The notes under the pieces are model-generated. The model saw only the letters and a program-made list of their open reading frames with translations, was not told the DNA's origin and searched no databases. This document shows, one piece after another, positions 3,129 to 44,610 of a DNA stretch of 64,000 nucleotides (positions within the stretch are counted from its first letter, which is position 1; each line of letters begins with the position of its first letter). The stretch spans positions 1 through 64,000 of the forward strand of contig NZ_AUMQ01000022.1 in NCBI RefSeq assembly GCF_000430765.1, written 5' to 3'. The position numbers and the translations under genes were made by a program. The DNA comes from Peribacillus kribbensis DSM 17871 (GTDB lineage Bacteria; Bacillota; Bacilli; Bacillales; DSM-1321).

Positions 3129-5105
3129 CTATTCTGGATAGGATACAGTTTCATCCTGAATGACTTCATTATCTCGTTCTACTTTGTATTCAGCTTTTTT
3201 ACCGGGTGCAATTATAAGGTTTATCGTCCTTTTTTCTGCCGCCGTTATTCTAAATTGTGAAAATGGTTCAGATAGGCTATTTTCCATATCCTCTACATAA
3301 ATCCTGATCATTTGCTCCTTGCCTCCCGCACTCTGATCATATGGGATGTTTACATCAACTGGTACGGTTTTTGGCGGCAGTTCCTTTTTGCCTTTAGAAA
3401 TGACGACATTGACTGTACTTCCCTTCTCCAGCTGTGTGGAAGGCGCCGGATCCTGAGAAATGACAAAGCCTTTTGGAACCGTGTCACTGTATTCCTCTGA
3501 CTTTGTATTAATCACCAGTCCGTTATTACTGCTATATTCATCCAAGTTCTGCTGATTAAATTCTTTTAAATCTTTAAGGGTGATTTTTTCAGGGCCCAAG
3601 CTGACCGTGAACTTCAATTGCGTGTCCGACGGGACCACTTCCGCATTCGGTGCAGGGTCCTGCTGCAATATGGTCCCAGCCACACTATCATCATTCTCTT
3701 TCGTTATCTCCGGTTCATTAAATCCCTGACTTTTAACGATGGTTTGGATGTCATCGATATTTGCGCCCATGAAATCGGAAAGAGTGATCTTTTTCTTTCC
3801 GCTGCTGATATAAATATCAACCGTCGTGCCTTCTTTCACAACGCTTCCGATTTCCGGGTCTGTTTTAATGACGGAATTCATTTGGACTTCATCATCTTCC
3901 AGCTCCATGGTTTTCCCAATTTTGAAGCCGTGGTCAAGCATGCTTGTCATGGCATTATCCAGCTTTTTGTTTTTAATATCCGGAATTTTGACTTCCTTTG
4001 GTGCCGTCATATCAGGCAGGACTGTAAAGGATAAGGCACTCAGCAGGAGCAAAAATAAAAAGGTAGATACCAAGATCATCGGCCATCTTTTTCTTTTCTT
4101 GGCCTTCACCGGTTTTTTCTTCTTTTTGTCTTTAGCAGGTTTGCCTTTCTGTACAACAGCAGGCTCGGCCCCTCTAATCAGAGTTTCATCGAATTCCGCA
4201 GCCTTGATATCCTTAGGAATGATTGGAATGGCCTTGGTGGCATCCTTATCCTCCGGAAGGACAAAGGGAGCTTCATTCCTCCGGCCGGGGTCCAGGCCGG
4301 TTTTTAGATCTTCAGCCATTTCCTCGCTGCTCGCATATCTGTAAAAAGGATCTTTGCTCGTAGCTTTGAGGACACAGTTGGCCACACTCTGCGGGATATC
4401 CGGATTCCATCTTTTCGGGGACGGCATTTCGGATTGCAGATGCTTTAAGGCAATTGATATGGCAGATTCTCCGGAAAAAGGAAGCCTGCCCGTCAGAAGC
4501 TCAAACATGACGATGCCCATGGAATAGATATCAGAAGTTTTATTGGCCATCCCGCCCCTTGCCTGTTCAGGAGATAAATAATGCACGGAGCCAAGCACGG
4601 CATTCGTCTGGGTAATATTCGTAGCACTGAGTGCCATGGCGATACCAAAGTCTGTGATTTTCACCTGGCCCTGTCCGTCTATTAATATATTCTGGGGCTT
4701 AATGTCCCTATGAATAATTCCATATTGATGAGCGTGAGAAATAGCTGAAGCAATCTGTTCCATAATATCCAAGGCCTTATCAACAGGGATTGGAAAGTTT
4801 CTCTGTATGTATTGTTTCAGTGTCAGCCCATCTACATATTCCATGACAATATAATAAATATCATCCTCTATACCTACATCATAAATGCTGACAATATTTT
4901 GATGCGCAAGGCTTGTCGCTGCCTGGGCTTCTCTGTTAAATCTCTTTATGAATTCATCATCATTGGAAAAATCCATTCTCAGAATTTTCAACGCTACCTC
5001 GCGTTCCAGGATCATGTCCCGTGCAAGATAGACATTCGCCATTCCTCCGCCGCCTATCATCTCTAAAACTTTATAACGGCCGCTGATTCTTTTTCCAATC
5101 AGCAT
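3129..5105 (-). CDS. prkC: PASTA-domain serine/threonine kinase PrkC
   Basis: PrkC is a membrane kinase that senses muropeptides or lipid II and controls germination, wall metabolism and translation factors. The 658 residues contain an N-terminal Hanks kinase (about 11-270) with glycine loop IGGGGMANV (17-25), Lys40, catalytic HRDIKPQN (Asp134) and DFG (152-154). A lysine-rich juxtamembrane stretch and one membrane helix near 340-362 follow, then three PASTA repeats and a C-terminal Ig-like region ending about 15 residues past KAEYKVERD. The phosphatase gene prpC lies five bases upstream, the usual kinase-phosphatase pair. All key catalytic residues are present. Confidence 0.97.
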   Translation of the reverse strand: MLIGKRISGRYKVLEMIGGGGMANVYLARDMILEREVALKILRMDFSNDDEFIKRFNREAQAATSLAHQNIVSIYDVGIEDDIYYIVMEYVDGLTLKQYIQRNFPIPVDKALDIMEQIASAISHAHQYGIIHRDIKPQNILIDGQGQVKITDFGIAMALSATNITQTNAVLGSVHYLSPEQARGGMANKTSDIYSMGIVMFELLTGRLPFSGESAISIALKHLQSEMPSPKRWNPDIPQSVANCVLKATSKDPFYRYASSEEMAEDLKTGLDPGRRNEAPFVLPEDKDATKAIPIIPKDIKAAEFDETLIRGAEPAVVQKGKPAKDKKKKKPVKAKKRKRWPMILVSTFLFLLLLSALSFTVLPDMTAPKEVKIPDIKNKKLDNAMTSMLDHGFKIGKTMELEDDEVQMNSVIKTDPEIGSVVKEGTTVDIYISSGKKKITLSDFMGANIDDIQTIVKSQGFNEPEITKENDDSVAGTILQQDPAPNAEVVPSDTQLKFTVSLGPEKITLKDLKEFNQQNLDEYSSNNGLVINTKSEEYSDTVPKGFVISQDPAPSTQLEKGSTVNVVISKGKKELPPKTVPVDVNIPYDQSAGGKEQMIRIYVEDMENSLSEPFSQFRITAAEKRTINLIIAPGKKAEYKVERDNEVIQDETVSYPE

Positions 5106-29619: not shown

Positions 29620-29768
29620 TTGTATAAAAAAACACCCTGACTTTAAGCCAGGGTGTGAAATGCAGGGTTCATCAGCATGCGAAAGCCCGCGGAATACAAT
29701 GAATGTTTTCCGCCAAGCCTGCATGGACCTGCCATTTTACACCCTTGGAAGCCTCTCTGGACTTCGCT
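29620..29768 (-). promoter_or_regulatory. PyrR-dependent attenuator in front of pyrC
   Basis: Minus-strand RNA carries AGTCCAGAGAGGCTT (about 29750-29764), the PyrR-binding anti-antiterminator loop. About 95 bases later comes a strong terminator, ACACCCTGGCTTAAAGTCAG with GGTGT (29632-29656), and a T run (29625-29631). In B. subtilis the matching attenuator lies between pyrP and pyrB. With UMP, PyrR should bind the loop and favour the terminator, cutting expression of pyrC and everything after it. Confidence 0.9.
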
Positions 29769-29780
29769 TAAAAGGTGTGC

Positions 29781-31761: not shown

Positions 31762-31792
31762 TCATCCTTCTTTCACAGGAATTCATTTACGC

Positions 31793-31900
31793 AAAAAACC
31801 CTCCTGCCGGAAAGAGCAGGAGGGTTCCGCGGCTGAATAAGGGGCATACTGCACCTCAGCCTAAACGATTCCTTCTCAGCCTCTCTGGACTGTGTTAAAG
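31793..31900 (-). promoter_or_regulatory. PyrR-dependent attenuator in the pyrR leader
   Basis: The minus-strand RNA contains CAGTCCAGAGAGGCTGAGAA (about 31873-31892), an exact match to the PyrR-binding loop, then the terminator AACCCTCCTGCTCTTTCCGG with CAGGAGGGTT (31797-31826) and a T run. The pyrR ATG is 35 bases beyond. This is the first of the three usual pyr attenuators. Confidence 0.93.
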
Positions 31901-31920
31901 GTTCATATTATGTTACATTT

Positions 31921-31949: not shown

Positions 31950-32860
31950 GAGTTTTGTCGTAGCATTGAAAGAAGTTCTACAAAATCCTCTGGCAGAGGT
32001 GCCGAGAATTCAAGATACTCTTTGGTTCTTGGATGGGTAAATCCAAGGACGGCAGCATGCAGGGCCTGGCCGCCCAGGTCAAGCGTCTTCCGCGGACCAT
32101 ACTTGGGGTCACCCGCCAATGGATAGCCGATATATTTCATATGTACCCTGATCTGGTGTGTCCTCCCTGTCTCCAGCTTGCATTCGACAAAGGTGAAGTC
32201 TTTAAAGCGTTCGAGCACATTAAAGTGAGTGACCGCATGCTTGGAATTTTCTTCTGTAACGGTCATGCTCTGCCGGTCCTTCTTATCCCTTCCAATTGGG
32301 GCATCAATGGTGCCGTGGTCATGAGGGATCACTCCATGGACAATCGCATTATATCTTCTGGTTACCGTTTTATCGACGAGCTGCTGAACAAGGCTTTCAT
32401 GGGCCATATCATTCTTTGCGACCATCAGTAGACCGGATGTATCCTTATCGATTCGGTGGACAATCCCGGGACGGAGAACTCCGTTAATGCCTGATAAATC
32501 CTTGCAGTGCGCCATCAGGCCGTTTACAAGTGTTCCGCTCATGTGGCCGGGAGCAGGATGGACGACCATCCCCTTTGGTTTGTTGACCACCAGCACGTCA
32601 GCGTCTTCATAATAAATATCGAGATCCATTTCTTCCGCTTCAGCATCCAGCTCCTGCGGTTCAGGAATTTCTACTGTGATTGCGTCTCCCCCGCTGCATT
32701 TATAATTGGTCTTTACGGCCTTACCGTTCACAAGCACATGACCTTCTTTAATCCACTGCTGGACCTGCGATCTGGACCATTCCTCATTGGAGGCAGACAA
32801 CACCTTGTCGATGCGCTCTCCTTTATGTTCTTCCTTAACCGTGATATCCCAATTAGGCAT
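31946..32860 (-). CDS. rluD: RluD-type 23S rRNA pseudouridine synthase (YlyB)
   Basis: The enzyme converts uridines of 23S rRNA helix 69 to pseudouridine in its E. coli relative. The product has an N-terminal S4 RNA-binding domain (about 14-75, with RIDKVLS and [13 protein letters not shown]) and a catalytic domain whose aspartate is in [15 protein letters not shown]. The frame is open for 28 more codons, but MPNWDITV from the ATG at 32860, with GGAG eight bases before it, is the family start and gives 304 residues. It overlaps lspA by eight bases. Position before pyrR matches ylyB. Confidence 0.93.
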
Positions 32861-33323
32861 TCTTTTTCTCCTTCGCAATTTTCTCTTCAAACAGCATATA
32901 AATAACGAGTAATACAACACCGATGCATAAAGCTGAATCAGCAATATTAAAAACCGGGAAGTTATAATTCACAATGTATACGTGGATAAAGTCTACTACT
33001 TCTTTTCTCCAAATACGGTCAATAAAATTCCCGACTGCTCCACCAAGCATAAGGCCCAGGGAAACACCGAGAAGGATATTGTTTCTTGCATGCTTCAGCA
33101 GATAATAAACAAGTCCTGCTATCACCGCGATCGTAATAATATAGAAAAACCACATCTGGCCGGCAAGCACACCCCAAGCTGCGCCTGTATTACGGTGTGA
33201 TGTGATATAAAATACATTTTGGATGATTTCAACACTTTCTCCTAAATAGAGATTCTTCACAATCAGCCATTTTGTTAGTTGATCCAGCGCAATGACAAAT
33301 AGTGCTATCAAAAAGTAAACCAC
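32853..33323 (-). CDS. lspA: Lipoprotein signal peptidase
   Basis: LspA cleaves the signal peptide of diacylated prolipoproteins in the membrane. The 156 residues have four hydrophobic helices, starting with [19 protein letters not shown]. The two catalytic aspartates lie in the conserved GNFIDR and FNIADSAL motifs. It shares its last bases with rluD, so the two are coupled. Upstream, across 586 bases, is ileS; that gap carries the 20-bp periodic array. Confidence 0.97.
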
Positions 33324-33440
33324 AATCTCTCCCCCGCTCCTGTAAATGAAAATAGGCCTTCGGTCTCCCGTTTATGCCTATAGTCTACTTATGCATTTTA
33401 GCATATCCTTTAAATTTTGGACAATCGCCGGTAAATCAAA

Positions 33441-33770
33441 TGCGGCAATTCATTTATGGCTGCTTGGATCCATACCGCAGAATAACGGTCATAAGATGGC
33501 AATGACGATCATTCAGGCATTTTTACGATCATTTAAGTGCAGAGCGGATCATTGTTACTATTCATCTATCATGTTTCAACGGCCGGACCATTCGGGCCTT
33601 TTTGTGAGCATTATCGTTTAAACCGGATCGTTTCCTATCCCCCTGACCCTCCGCAACTGCCGTTTGGAACATTAATTTTCAGTTTCGGATCATTCTTTGA
33701 ATGATACAGATCATAAAAGTGGAAGATTGGATCATATATTTAGAATTCCGGATCATAATCATCTCGGGCA
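33441..33770. repeat. Degenerate 20-bp periodic array (GATCAT motif, about 16 units)
   Basis: A GATCAT-like hexamer, usually preceded by CG, recurs once per 20 bases. ATCAT or a near match starts at 33488, 33508, 33528, 33548, 33568, 33587, 33607 and 33627, then less clearly, and clearly again at 33689, 33710, 33731 and 33752, where spacing becomes 21. The other 12-14 bases of each unit vary freely. Reading frames do not persist through a 20-base period. It is not CRISPR-like, because the conserved part is only 6-9 bases. Confidence 0.75.
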
Positions 33771-33831
33771 TGTACGCGGCATGGAACCCCACTGTTTAAA
33801 GTCCCCCGTACAGCTCCTAAAATATATCTGA

Positions 33832-33886
33832 GAATAAAAAAACTGCAGGAAAACCAGATTTCATCTGAGTTTGCCCTGCAGTTTTG
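33832..33886 (-). terminator. Rho-independent terminator after ileS
   Basis: On the minus strand ACTGCAGGGCAAACTC... pairs back to ...TTTTCCTGCAGT (arms about 33842-33849 and 33875-33882), followed by a T run at 33835-33841. It lies 25 bases past the ileS stop, so ileS is probably a separate transcript from lspA. Confidence 0.85.
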
Positions 33887-33909
33887 AGACTGATCGGAAT
33901 CAGCCAGTT

Positions 33910-36669
33910 TTATTCAATCTCACTAATCACGGATGCGCAGCGTGAGCAAAGAGTTGGATGCTCTTCTATTGTACCCACTTCTTCTTTCACGTTCCAGCAG
34001 CGCTCGCATGTTTCACCTTCGGCTTTAGAAACCACTACAGCAGACTGCTCCAGCTTTAAGGCATTCTCTGGGGCTTCGCTGAGATTTCCTGCGATTTCAA
34101 ACTTGGAGACAATGAACAGCTGATCAAAATCTTCTTCAATGCTTTGAAGCAGTTCTTTGCCGTCAGCATCCACATAGATGGATACTTTCGCATTAAGAGA
34201 TTTTCCAATGACCTTATCGTTTCTTGCCACTTCCAATGCTTTTAGGACATCATTGCGCAGCTTGAGGAAGCCATTCCACTTCTGTTCAATTTGCTGTGCA
34301 TTAGGAAGTTCCTTTTCTTCCGGCATATCTGTAAGCTGGACGCTGATTTCAGCAGCTTCCGGTACATGTGCCCAGACTTCATCGGCTGTGTGTGAAAGAA
34401 TAGGAGACACCAGTTTCGCCAGGCTGACAAGAGATTCATATAAAACGGTCTGAATAGCTCTGCGTTCAGGGTTTTCCATAGCTTCACAATACAGGATATC
34501 CTTGGCATAATCCAGATAGAACGCACTTAAATCAAGGGTGCAGAAATTATTAATCGCATGATAAATTCCTGCAAACTCATAGTTGTCATAAGCCTGCTTC
34601 ACCTGCTTGACCAGCTTATTCAGCTTGACAAGCATGAATTGGTCCACTTCGCGAAGTGAATCATACTCTACAGAGTCCCTGGAAGGAATAAAGTCAGCCA
34701 GGTTCCCAAGAAGGAAGCGGAATGTGTTGCGGATTTTTCTATAAACTTCAGCAACCTGCTTCAGGATCGCATCGGATACACGCACATCCGCCTGATAGTC
34801 CACAGAAGCAACCCATAGCCGAAGAATATCTGCACCAAGCTGATTCATGACTTTGGCTGGTACGACAATATTGCCTATTGATTTACTCATCTTTCTTCCT
34901 TCGCCGTCCAATACAAATCCATGGCTCAATACGCCTTTATATGGCGGTTTTCCTGTCACCGCAACGGCTGTGGAGAGAGATGAGTTGAACCAGCCGCGGT
35001 ATTGGTCAGAGCCTTCCAAATATAAGTCTGCAGGACGCTGCAGGTCATCCCGCTCTTCCAGAACGGACTGATGGGATGAACCTGAGTCGAACCATACATC
35101 CATGATGTCCACTTCTTTCGTGAACGTTCCATTCGGGCTGCCTTCATGTGTGAATCCTTCTGGCAGGAGGTCCTTTGCATCTTTTTCAAACCAGATATTT
35201 GAACCGTTCTTGCGGAACAAATCAGAAACATGATGGATCGTTTCGTCTGTGATAATCGGCTCACCATTTTCGGCGTAAAATACCGGGATTGGAACACCCC
35301 ATGCACGCTGGCGGGAAATACACCAGTCACCACGGTCGCGGACCATGTTAAACAACCTGGTCTCGCCCCATGCAGGAACCCATTTTGTATCTTCGATGCC
35401 TTTCAGCAGGTCAGATCTGAAGTCTTTAATGGAAGCGAACCATTGTGCGGTCGCACGGAAAATGGTCGGCTTTTTGGTTCTCCAATCATGCGGATAGGAG
35501 TGGGTAATGAAGTTAAGCTTCAGTAATGCCCCCGCTTCTTCAAGCTTTTGGGTAATTGGCTTGTTGGCTTCATCATAGAATAAACCTTCAAAGCCAGGAG
35601 CTTCTTTTGTCATGACCCCTTTTTCATCAACCGGACAAAGAACATCCAGATTGTATTTCTGTCCGACAATGAAGTCATCTTCCCCGTGGCCCGGAGCCGT
35701 ATGGACACACCCTGTTCCAGCTTCTGTCGTTACATGCTCACCAAGCATGACAAGGGAATCACGGCCATATAATGGGTGCTTGGCAATGATGTATTCGAGA
35801 TCAGAACCCTTCACTTTCTTTTCAACTGAAGGGCTTTCCCAGCCAAGGGTTTCTGTTACCTCCTCACGAAGGGCTTCTGCGATGACATATTTCTTTCCGT
35901 CGACAGCCACTACACTGTACTCCAGGTCAGGATGTACAGAGATCCCAAGGTTTGCTGGAATGGTCCAAGGAGTGGTTGTCCAGATGACAATCTCCGTTCC
36001 TTCTTCAAGAACATTTTTGCCATCCTTAACAGGGAAGCCTACATAGATGGATGCTGAACGCTTATCATAATATTCGATTTCAGCTTCGGCAAGAGCAGAC
36101 TCACTGGATGGAGACCAATAGACCGGCTTAAGTCCCTTATAGATATAGCCCTTTTTCGCCATTTCACCGAATACCTTGATTTGCTGTGCTTCGTATTCAG
36201 GCTTCAGGGTAATATATGGATTTTCCCAGTCTCCTCTTACTCCAAGGCGTTTGAACTGTTCGCGCTGGCTGTTGATCTGCTCATAGGCATATTCCTCACA
36301 AAGCCTGCGGAAATCAGCCACACTCATTTCTTTCCTTTTAACTCCCTTTTTAGTTAAAGCCTGCTCAATCGGAAGGCCGTGTGTATCCCAGCCAGGAACA
36401 TATGGAGCCTGATAGCCCGACATGGATTTAAAGCGGACGATAAAATCCTTAAGGATTTTATTTAAAGCGTGGCCCATATGGATATCTCCATTTGCATATG
36501 GAGGCCCATCATGCAGGACATACATCGGCCTGTCCTTCGTACGTTCCTGAACTTGCTTATAAATATCGATTTCCTGCCATTTTTTCTGGATTTCCGGCTC
36601 CCTGTTTGGCAGATTGCCGCGCATAGGGAATTCTGTCTTTGGCATTAAGAGAGTATCTTTATACTCCAT
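33910..36669 (-). CDS. ileS: Isoleucyl-tRNA synthetase
   Basis: IleS charges tRNA-Ile. The 919 residues show the HIGH-type motif HMGHAL (about 65-70) after GPPYANGDI, the editing CP1 insertion with [23 protein letters not shown], the KMSKS loop, the anticodon-binding helices and a C-terminal zinc motif with paired cysteines (CERCW and CSRC). This is the long bacterial type with the zinc tail, which is the mupirocin-sensitive class in general. A T-box leader controls it. Confidence 0.97.
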
Positions 36670-36734: not shown

Positions 36735-36990
36735 ATAAAAAAGCCCTCTCATCCCAAAAAGGGACGAGAAGGCTTGATTTCCCGCGGTACCACCCTAATA
36801 GACAATGACACATTGTCCTCTTTAGCATCCTTATCGTGGATGAAGCGCCTCATTTACTTCCGGTTAAGGTTCAATTCGGTACTCAAGGGTGATGTTCCAT
36901 TTCTTCGTTCATGCCAGGCTTCCACCAGCCCTGGCTCGCTTTGAATGACCATAAGAAATATACTGTCCCTCTCATCGTAGCAGTCTGCAT
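36735..36990 (-). promoter_or_regulatory. T-box riboswitch of ileS
   Basis: The minus-strand RNA contains the T-box AGGGTGGTACCGCGGG (36781-36796), which includes the UGG-N-ACC bulge pairing with the tRNA acceptor end. The competing terminator AAGCCTTCTCGTCCC/GGGATGAGAGGGCTT (36741-36775) and a T run follow. Upstream is a Stem I region with GAACATCACC, in which AUC is a plausible isoleucine specifier codon. Uncharged tRNA-Ile should stabilise the antiterminator and switch ileS on. Confidence 0.92.
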
Positions 36991-44089: not shown

Positions 44090-44149
44090 TTTTTGAGATG
44101 GATTTAACAGTTTTTTTTAGACTTTTTTCCGGTTCTTGTCAACTGAAAT

Positions 44150-44588
44150 GCGGAAAGCGGTGCCTTTCAAACTAGAAATAATTAAAGCCCCTATGATTTA
44201 CAAATCTTATTCAAAAACTTATACCATTTGAAAGGCAGAGACCCGACAAGCATAAGGCGGACAGGCTGTGGGGAGTGCCCTTCTCCCCATAGACTGTCTG
44301 ACTTATGACTCGAGGGTCTCAGCTTGGAGCTGGACATCAAGAAAAGCGGAAAGCGGTGCCTTTCAAACTAGAAATAATTAAAGCCCCTATGATTTACAAA
44401 TCTTATTCAAAAACTTATACCATTTGAAAGGCAGAGACCCGACAAGCATAAGGCGGACAGGCTGTGGGGAGTGCCCTTCTCCCCATAGACTGTCTGACTT
44501 ATGACTCGAGGGTCTCAGCTTGGAGCTGGACATCAAGAAAAGCGGAAAGCGGTGCCTTTCAAACTAGAAATAATTAAAGCCCCTCTGA
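44150..44588. repeat. 196-bp tandem repeat of a hairpin element (2.2 copies)
   Basis: Two identical units, 44150-44345 and 44346-44541, each start with GCGGAAAGCGGTGCC. A third partial unit (44542-44583) diverges after AAAGCCCCT. Each unit has TGCCTTTCAAA mirrored by TTTGAAAGGCA, and a long imperfect hairpin from GACCCGACAAGCATAAG to CTTATGACTCGAGGGTC around CTGTGGGGAG/CTCCCCATAG (44240-44318 in unit 1). No frame is conserved. It fills the gap between ftsZ and spoIIGA. Diverged single copies lie at 18605-18805 and 355-436. Confidence 0.92.
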
Positions 44589-44610
44589 TTTACCACAGAA
44601 TAAAATAAAG

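Follow-up and report, generated by a model that had tools for sequence, protein, structure and literature searches.

Between ileS and lspA, Peribacillus kribbensis DSM 17871 carries an array of short, degenerate direct repeats in which five units at steps of 21 bp are followed by units at steps of 20 bp. The array belongs to a dispersed class of intergenic elements, and among the matches listed from the open-access papers searched we found none that describes arrays of this kind. Its geometry is common to P. kribbensis and to Peribacillus deserti; the repeated word differs. We analyzed a window of 64,000 nucleotides (contig NZ_AUMQ01000022.1, positions 1 to 64,000) of P. kribbensis, whose genome is here called G000, together with genomes and selected stretches from its relatives.

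Architecture of the window array

The array is a periodic stretch of about 320 bases in the 585-bp gap at 33324–33909, and both flanking genes lie on the minus strand (Table 1). Read on the minus strand, its unit is ATGATCC(G) followed by 12–14 free bases, and about 16 such units stand between ileS and the lspA promoter. Core starts of the 21-bp block, in plus coordinates, are 33756, 33735, 33714, 33693, and 33672; those of the 20-bp block are 33631, 33611, 33591, 33572, 33552, 33532, and 33512, with degenerate terminal units near 33492, 33473, and 33453 that were placed partly by eye. The cores of the 20-bp block read ACGATCC, ATGCTCA, ATGGTCC, ATGATAG, ATGATCC, ATGATCG, and ATGATCG, then, in degenerate form, ATGACCG, ATGGATC, and ATGAATT. 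Successive steps are 21, 21, 21, 21, 41, 20, 20, 19, 20, 20, and 20 before the degenerate units, the step of 41 being made up of one 21-bp unit and a core-less 20-bp unit. A preliminary description, made from the letters of this DNA, had proposed about 16 units at 20-base steps that drift to 21 near ileS. The units are present where it had placed them; the supposed drift is instead an abrupt block of five 21-bp units, which recurs in other copies, i.e., in L077, L303, and L309 of G000 and, with the core ATGCTTA, in P. deserti. A coding origin of the array was rejected, as units contain in-frame stops (e.g., ATG ATC CGA AAC TGA in window unit 4, by eye) and a period of 20 is not divisible by three.

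Table 1. Features of the ileS–lspA region in the window (window coordinates)
Feature	Position	Strand	Remarks
ileS, upstream neighbor	33910..36669	-	TIGR00392, 1052.5 bits (cut-off 621.4)
Terminator-like hairpin past ileS	33836..33887	-	AAACTGCAGG...CCTGCAGTTTTTTT; by eye
21-bp block, units u1–u5	33652..33756	-	Cores ATGATCC, ATGATCC, ATGATCT, ATGATCC, ATGTTCC; steps exactly 21
Core-less unit u6	33632..33651	-	Between the 21-bp and 20-bp blocks
20-bp block, about 10 units	33434..33631	-	Steps of 20 and one of 19; last units by eye, low end approximate
Promoter-like site, presumably of lspA	33395..33424	-	TTGTCC-18-TAAAAT, TG before the second hexamer
lspA, downstream neighbor	32853..33323	-	TIGR00077, 163.6 bits (cut-off 73.95)

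The promoter-like site scores 9 of 12, which is weak, with three such sites in the region versus 2.2 expected in shuffles. The hairpin past ileS is absent from our hairpin scan, which takes loops of 3–8 only. Elsewhere in the window, above Rfam gathering scores, are a T-box leader upstream of ileS (36757–36984) and two PyrR binding sites (31789–31905 and 29625–29778). The window also contains a 196-bp tandem repeat (44145–44593, 2.3 copies at 99%), relatives of which occur in several P. deserti V1-29 loci at about 69–76% identity.

Statistical support for the period

Plain autocorrelation, the check proposed in the preliminary description, does rise at lag 20 (0.332 versus 0.256 ± 0.025 in shuffles), if weakly, since about 13 of the 20 bases per unit are free; 9.65% of 2000 shuffles reach this value at some lag of 10–60. 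It was judged too weak, and we used a core-chaining statistic instead, which chains any 7-mer at steps of 20 or 21 and allows up to two mismatches. The best chain in the gap scored 16, with the core ATGATCC, versus a mean of 5.2 (sd 0.77, maximum 8) in 400 dinucleotide-preserving shuffles. Base periods of 12–18 and 22–31 gave chain scores of 4–6 on the real gap; base period 19, the steps of which include 20, scored 19. Tandem Repeats Finder at a minimum score of 30 did not list the window array.

Counting arrays with an exact-6-mer finder gave 9 in 464 kb of G000 versus 0–2 at other base periods, 31 versus 0–10 in stretches chosen for arrays, and 4, all inside ORFs, versus 1–4 in six other family genomes. 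These controls at other base periods weaken simple array counting. The finder is also strict and missed the degenerate array of the P. deserti record L133.

Further copies in P. kribbensis

The 5.05-Mb G000 genome has 33 occurrences, spread over 16 loci, of ATGATCC followed by ATGATC at 19–22 bp, and none of the reversed control pattern. Ten of these loci resolve into arrays of at least five units; the other six were left out of the array count, five because they gave fewer than five units and one that was not included. The search for other arrays suggested earlier has hence revealed a dispersed class that recurs genome-wide in G000 and in P. deserti.

Four of the ten G000 arrays (window, L077, L303, L309) run through four 21-bp steps and then jump by 40–42 bp into the 20-bp part, and in three (L084, L310, L311) the jump is present with fewer intact 21-bp steps. 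Jump sizes are 41 bp in the window, L303, L311, and L084, 42 bp in L077, and 40 bp in L309 and L310. L083 has four 21-bp steps followed by 24 and 37, and L085 and L086 are without the 21-then-20 order. Spacers specific to a unit recur among the copies, e.g., the CACTTTT at the end of unit 2 is common to the window, L077, L085, and L309, and we therefore conclude that several copies have a single element as their ancestor. In an alignment of eight G000 copies, identity upstream of unit 1 is near chance (0.20–0.31 per 10-bp bin).

P. deserti arrays use another core on the same ruler

The two other genomes of the genus that we compared, P. deserti V1-29 (G001) and P. deserti DSM 105482 (G002), have the core ATGCTTA, with 321 triples in G001 and 32 in G002. 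No ATGCTTA triples were found in G000 or the other 38 relatives, nor in the other 41 of 43 family genomes. Conversely, G001 and G002 have no ATGATC triples, which occur in three of 41 genomes, i.e., G000 (19), G005 (12), and G012 (20).

We called 50 ATGCTTA arrays, 34 in G001 and 16 in G002, in stretches mostly picked around ATGCTTA matches; one shuffle of these loci gave no array. Steps were called with equal penalty for single steps of 15–26 and a higher penalty for 34–49. Out of 483 steps, 410 were 21 (238) or 20 (172), and transitions from 21 to 20 outnumbered the reverse by 46 to 7. Nine of the 50 arrays could not be anchored; among the remaining 41, 28 begin exactly with five steps of 21 and three of 20. 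In a recount, five 21-bp steps giving way at once to 20 were found in 30 of 34 G001 arrays and 3 of 16 G002 arrays, with departures in 4 and 13, respectively, and the G002 arrays are more degenerate than those of G001. Typical P. deserti sites lie at 0, 21, 42, 63, 84, 105, 125, 145, and 165, positions that the window array matches except that its site 105 is core-less. Since stretches were mostly chosen for pattern matches, we estimated no array density from them; less selected samples were certain G000 stretches, 80 lspA loci, and two further stretch sets.

The ileS–lspA gap in relatives

The preliminary description had expected relatives to carry a periodic motif in the same region, and here the outcome is mixed. 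Arrays occupy this gap in both P. deserti genomes and in Peribacillus cavernae, those of G000 and G001 having the same orientation and different cores, and the array finder lists at least 3 of 80 named lspA loci, a lower bound because it missed the degenerate array of L133. The suggestion that the array takes the place of a small gene, ylyA of B. subtilis, was not supported. Judged by gap length and position, the gap is mostly without such a gene across the family, array or not; it measures 166–436 bp in 18 of 21 measurable same-family genomes outside the genus (one of 22 was unmeasurable). An ORF of 123 aa lies in the gap of B. nakamurai, and one of 215 aa in that of an order-level relative. 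Two records titled Chryseobacterium sp. ISL-80 (L156) and Pseudomonas sp. ISL-84 (L197) encode LspA 70–71% identical to that of the window, and their titles therefore look wrong.

Conservation of core, spacing, spacers, and flanks

In four orthologous pairs of G001 and G002 arrays, the 21-bp blocks are identical at 142 of 154 core positions (92%), a value inflated because the arrays were found through their core, and at 192 of 286 spacer positions (67%), counted in a register chosen to favor the spacers. That the core is better kept than the spacers between species agrees with what had been anticipated from the window. The spacing result is less exposed to this ascertainment: none of the four 21-bp blocks has an internal gap, whereas the 150-bp flanks of the orthologous pairs have 17 gaps upstream and 12 downstream. 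Core and spacing are hence better conserved than spacers and flanks. Between orthologues the 20-bp part does contain gaps, some of which are not a whole unit.

Across 41 arrays, in the part made up mostly of 21-bp units, core columns are 0.84–0.96 pairwise identical, versus 0.27–0.37 for mid-spacer columns; core columns of the 20-bp part are lower at 0.57–0.86. The registered 165-bp block used here begins with the second of the 21-bp units and is off by one base. Its "21" columns therefore combine four 21-bp units and the leading unit of the 20-bp part; step counts are unaffected. Array ends are sharp, with identity of 0.25–0.27 beyond about 195 bp upstream and about 180 bp downstream of the registered block; nearer upstream it is slightly raised (0.28–0.33), to which sub-families contribute. 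Spacer G+C is 0.37 in 21-bp units versus 0.46 in 20-bp units (p = 6e-4).

Copy turnover

In two gaps compared between G000 and G001, only one of the two genomes has an array. Some G001 arrays lie inside larger dispersed homologous segments of about 300–460 bp. From these segments and from the unit-specific spacers of G000 we conclude that part of the architecture reflects common descent. The 20-bp part undergoes whole-unit tandem duplication, and one copy among four related ones is longer by two units; further duplications are 40-bp dimers (L086, L002), a 123-bp higher-order repeat (L080), and one of about 100 bp (L236). Copy variation by whole units, as in a VNTR, is thus observed in the 20-bp part, and 30 of 34 G001 arrays keep the 21-bp block constant. 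Units are not alike at all positions, as those of a simple tandem satellite or VNTR would be; only the core is common to them. The L080 array (4187–4627), with the core TTTTGCTC, is mostly at 21 bp within its higher-order repeat (steps 21, 21, 21, 18, 21, 21) and overlaps an open frame of 183 aa, the coding value of which is doubtful.

Breadth across the family

A core-free finder applied to 1.37 Mb of less selected DNA returned eight intergenic loci at base period 19–21. They include the window, L077, and the P. deserti record L132, and add the cores TTTCGCTTAA (P. cavernae, L131), TCGCCAATAAA (L156), TATATCTGCG (L212), GACGGGA (L227), and ATTGCGTC (L087). The only other intergenic periods in this DNA were of about 25 or 51 bp, degenerate, at L197 2780 and L205 1798. 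Short arrays in G001 and G002 use further cores, among them TTTGCAGGAT, TACAGCTCAT, TTTATGTGGC, TGCGAGCAA, and CACTCTTA, at steps of 20 and 21 with a few of 19. In 400 kb from six other family genomes we found no intergenic array, and the element is therefore dispensable in the family.

The ATGATC arrays of G005 and G012 are near-perfect 20-bp tandems and have no 21-bp block in the loci shown. They are long and nearly homogeneous (L103–L110), with about 20–34 units in three examined, e.g., ATGATCCGGATTTGTGCTCG. In the one-contig genome G014, a 674-bp intergenic array (L212, 15376–16049) comprises 34 units (TTTATCTGCGG / TATATCTCCGA) and mixes 20- and 21-bp units.

Strand, neighbors, RNA, and mobile elements

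Among 53 arrays, 25 lie on the majority gene strand and 28 on the opposite strand (p = 0.78), and 22 follow GC skew versus 31 that oppose it (p = 0.27; 9 versus 23 in G001 alone). There is no overall strand preference in these arrays, nor an overall relation of strand to the flanking genes, and a replication-direction marker was rejected. No gene family was common to most of the neighbors; in 182 ORFs within 1.5 kb of 60 arrays the largest cluster touched six arrays.

The predicted RNA fold of the window array is not unusual (z = 0.05), and Rfam gave no family in it, with one chance-level match far below the gathering score, and none in 16 related loci except for PyrR sites elsewhere. We therefore rejected a structured RNA leader, having neither a covariance-model match nor an unusually stable fold.

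The window array had no match in plasmid and phage collections. In viral contigs, 18 and 8 stretches matched. Several of these consist of short tandem units that hardly differ, and in some the steps are divisible by three, which would be expected of coding repeats; the 21-to-20 switch was absent from the chains examined. The Mu-transpos_C domain (PF09299) was found in none of G000, G001, and G002, with 5 of 25 genomes positive; the StbA/ParM domain (PF06406) was likewise at zero in these three genomes and in 14 control genomes, so the sensitivity of this search is unproven. Comparison of array-bearing with array-free gaps in two cases showed by eye neither terminal inverted repeats nor target duplications, in flanks that are strongly diverged, too much so to decide.

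Discussion

The reading that fits best, and to which we would give about an even chance, is that these are cooperative, helically phased DNA-binding arrays of an oligomerizing protein, whose existence we infer. The two helical turns per unit and the phased binding sites proposed in the preliminary description remain the best fit to the data. The array itself would be the working part of a dispersed intergenic element. It would offer about 9–16 candidate binding sites, each about one helical turn long and followed by about one free turn, an alternation that would set all sites on one helix face. The candidate site core would be ATGATCC(G) in the window genome and TTTATGCTTAT in P. deserti. The putative protein may occupy the 21-bp sites in register and then extend along the 20-bp sites. 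There each site would be slightly rotated against the one before, and a bent or superhelical nucleoprotein patch could form. A role at the level of DNA is suggested by the negative strand, neighbor, RNA-fold/Rfam, and phage/plasmid tests; it would be chromosomal, i.e., condensation, anchoring, or insulation between transcription units, and not the regulation of one gene. The 20-bp part would gain and lose whole units by tandem duplication, and copies would arise at new intergenic places. Several observations speak against this reading. Several cores per genome would need several specificities or a reader that is blind to sequence, and ATGATC is also found in G005 and G012, in another arrangement. 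Further points against it are the ascertainment of arrays through their core, the partly common descent of the architecture, the departures from the 21-then-20 order in G000, G001, and G002, the gaps and the lower core identity of the 20-bp part, and the absence of intergenic arrays from 400 kb of six other family genomes.

Alternatively, a 20/21-bp tandem might have expanded by slippage and now be decaying neutrally, the periodic core being its remnant. The whole-unit duplications of L086, L002, L080, and L236 are in line with this, as are the near-homogeneous 20-bp arrays of G005 and G012 and the 20-bp part that varies in length and is gapped between orthologues. Neutral decay should, however, erode all unit positions alike and add indels that are not whole units, whereas orthologous 21-bp blocks keep their cores far better than their spacers and have no internal gap; moreover, five steps of 21 precede 20 at many loci, and this order recurs with another core in G000. 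Purely neutral satellite decay thus fits poorly and we regard it as unlikely. The simple decay of a very short satellite, considered in the preliminary description, has to give way too, as spacing and core outlast the spacers, even though the 20-bp part duplicates whole units. Slightly less probable still is a MITE-like origin, in which the array would be that part of a non-autonomous mobile element to which a transposase or an initiator binds. The large number of dispersed copies, with 10 resolved in G000, 34 in G001, and 16 in G002, would suit such an element, as would sharp ends, the unit-specific spacers common to G000 copies, sub-families with homologous flanks, and presence or absence at two G000–G001 gaps. 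On the other side, terminal inverted repeats and target duplications were not evident by eye at two gaps, in flanks too diverged to decide, and PF09299 had no match in G000–G002; the window array has no plasmid or phage match, and the viral-contig chains examined lack the switch from 21 to 20. Finally, a transcript of the array could through its repeated sites act as a sponge for a small RNA or for some RNA-binding protein, given that a core of 7–8 bases resembles a seed and the array is strand-asymmetric. RNA would not need exact steps of 20 and 21, the window array lies between a terminator-like hairpin (seen by eye) and a weak promoter-like site, array strand is unrelated overall to the flanking genes, and no unusual fold was found; we consider this reading very improbable.

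If the preferred reading of phased protein-binding arrays holds, a clade of ordinary soil bacteria has in each genome tens of protein-docking rows that keep their spacing, while sister species differ in the word to be recognized. The arrays would then be a natural experiment in how a DNA-binding protein and its sites evolve together, and each of them a ready-made bait for a chromosome-organizing protein. As a more tentative proposal, which we hold to be possible rather than probable, Bacillaceae of the P. deserti group and some relatives would carry diversified "two-turn arrays" with at least a dozen cores on one 20/21-bp geometry, as a new kind of chromosome-organizing element. About one turn of each unit is fixed and one is free, and the two main families have five 21-bp steps and then 20s. 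With a geometry that is kept while the word changes, these arrays would be read either by a fast-evolving family of oligomerizing binders or by a sequence-blind reader; the latter would sense self-similarity at a two-turn register, for example in the pairing of dispersed arrays.

Comparison with known systems

In the ParMRC plasmid centromere, parC, ParR binds to direct repeats, as with the 20-bp repeats of pSK41, that are about two helical turns apart on one DNA face, and assembles cooperatively into a superhelix. The array resembles this centromere in its direct repeats at about two turns on one DNA face and differs in its many chromosomal copies and several cores per genome; also, the window array adjoins ileS and lspA and not parMR. 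Iterons of theta-replicating plasmids (P1, RK2, R6K) are few direct repeats about two turns apart, from which the array is set off by dispersed copies, degenerate units, and a fixed 21-to-20 switch, and no replication gene lies beside the window array. Centromeres and iterons are an analogy for how the array may work; no neighboring par or rep gene was found at the window array. CRISPR arrays also have regular units of a repeated and a variable part. In the array the core is only 7–8 bp and degenerate and the free part is 12–14 bp; assignment to CRISPR, with its long uniform repeat, was rejected.

We place the arrays among dispersed intergenic repeats and binding-site arrays. In this group, the TAACTGA heptamer repeats of Beggiatoaceae and others are a short intergenic core at many loci of restricted genomes, found as sets of two to six direct repeats, with up to 43 in some genomes, and, in the Guaymas genome, lying for the most part immediately before start codons; a 20/21-bp spacing, the trait of our array, is not described in the parts of that report available to us (PMC4679880). 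As far as those parts go, the array is like them in that its short intergenic core recurs at many places within a limited group of genomes. REP/BIME, BOX, and the bcr repeats of B. cereus are intergenic and clade-restricted repeats in tens of copies, the function of which is debated. The array shares with them its intergenic position, tens of copies, and clade restriction, and differs from them in its helically phased, degenerate direct units and in a ruler that is common between species while the core is not.
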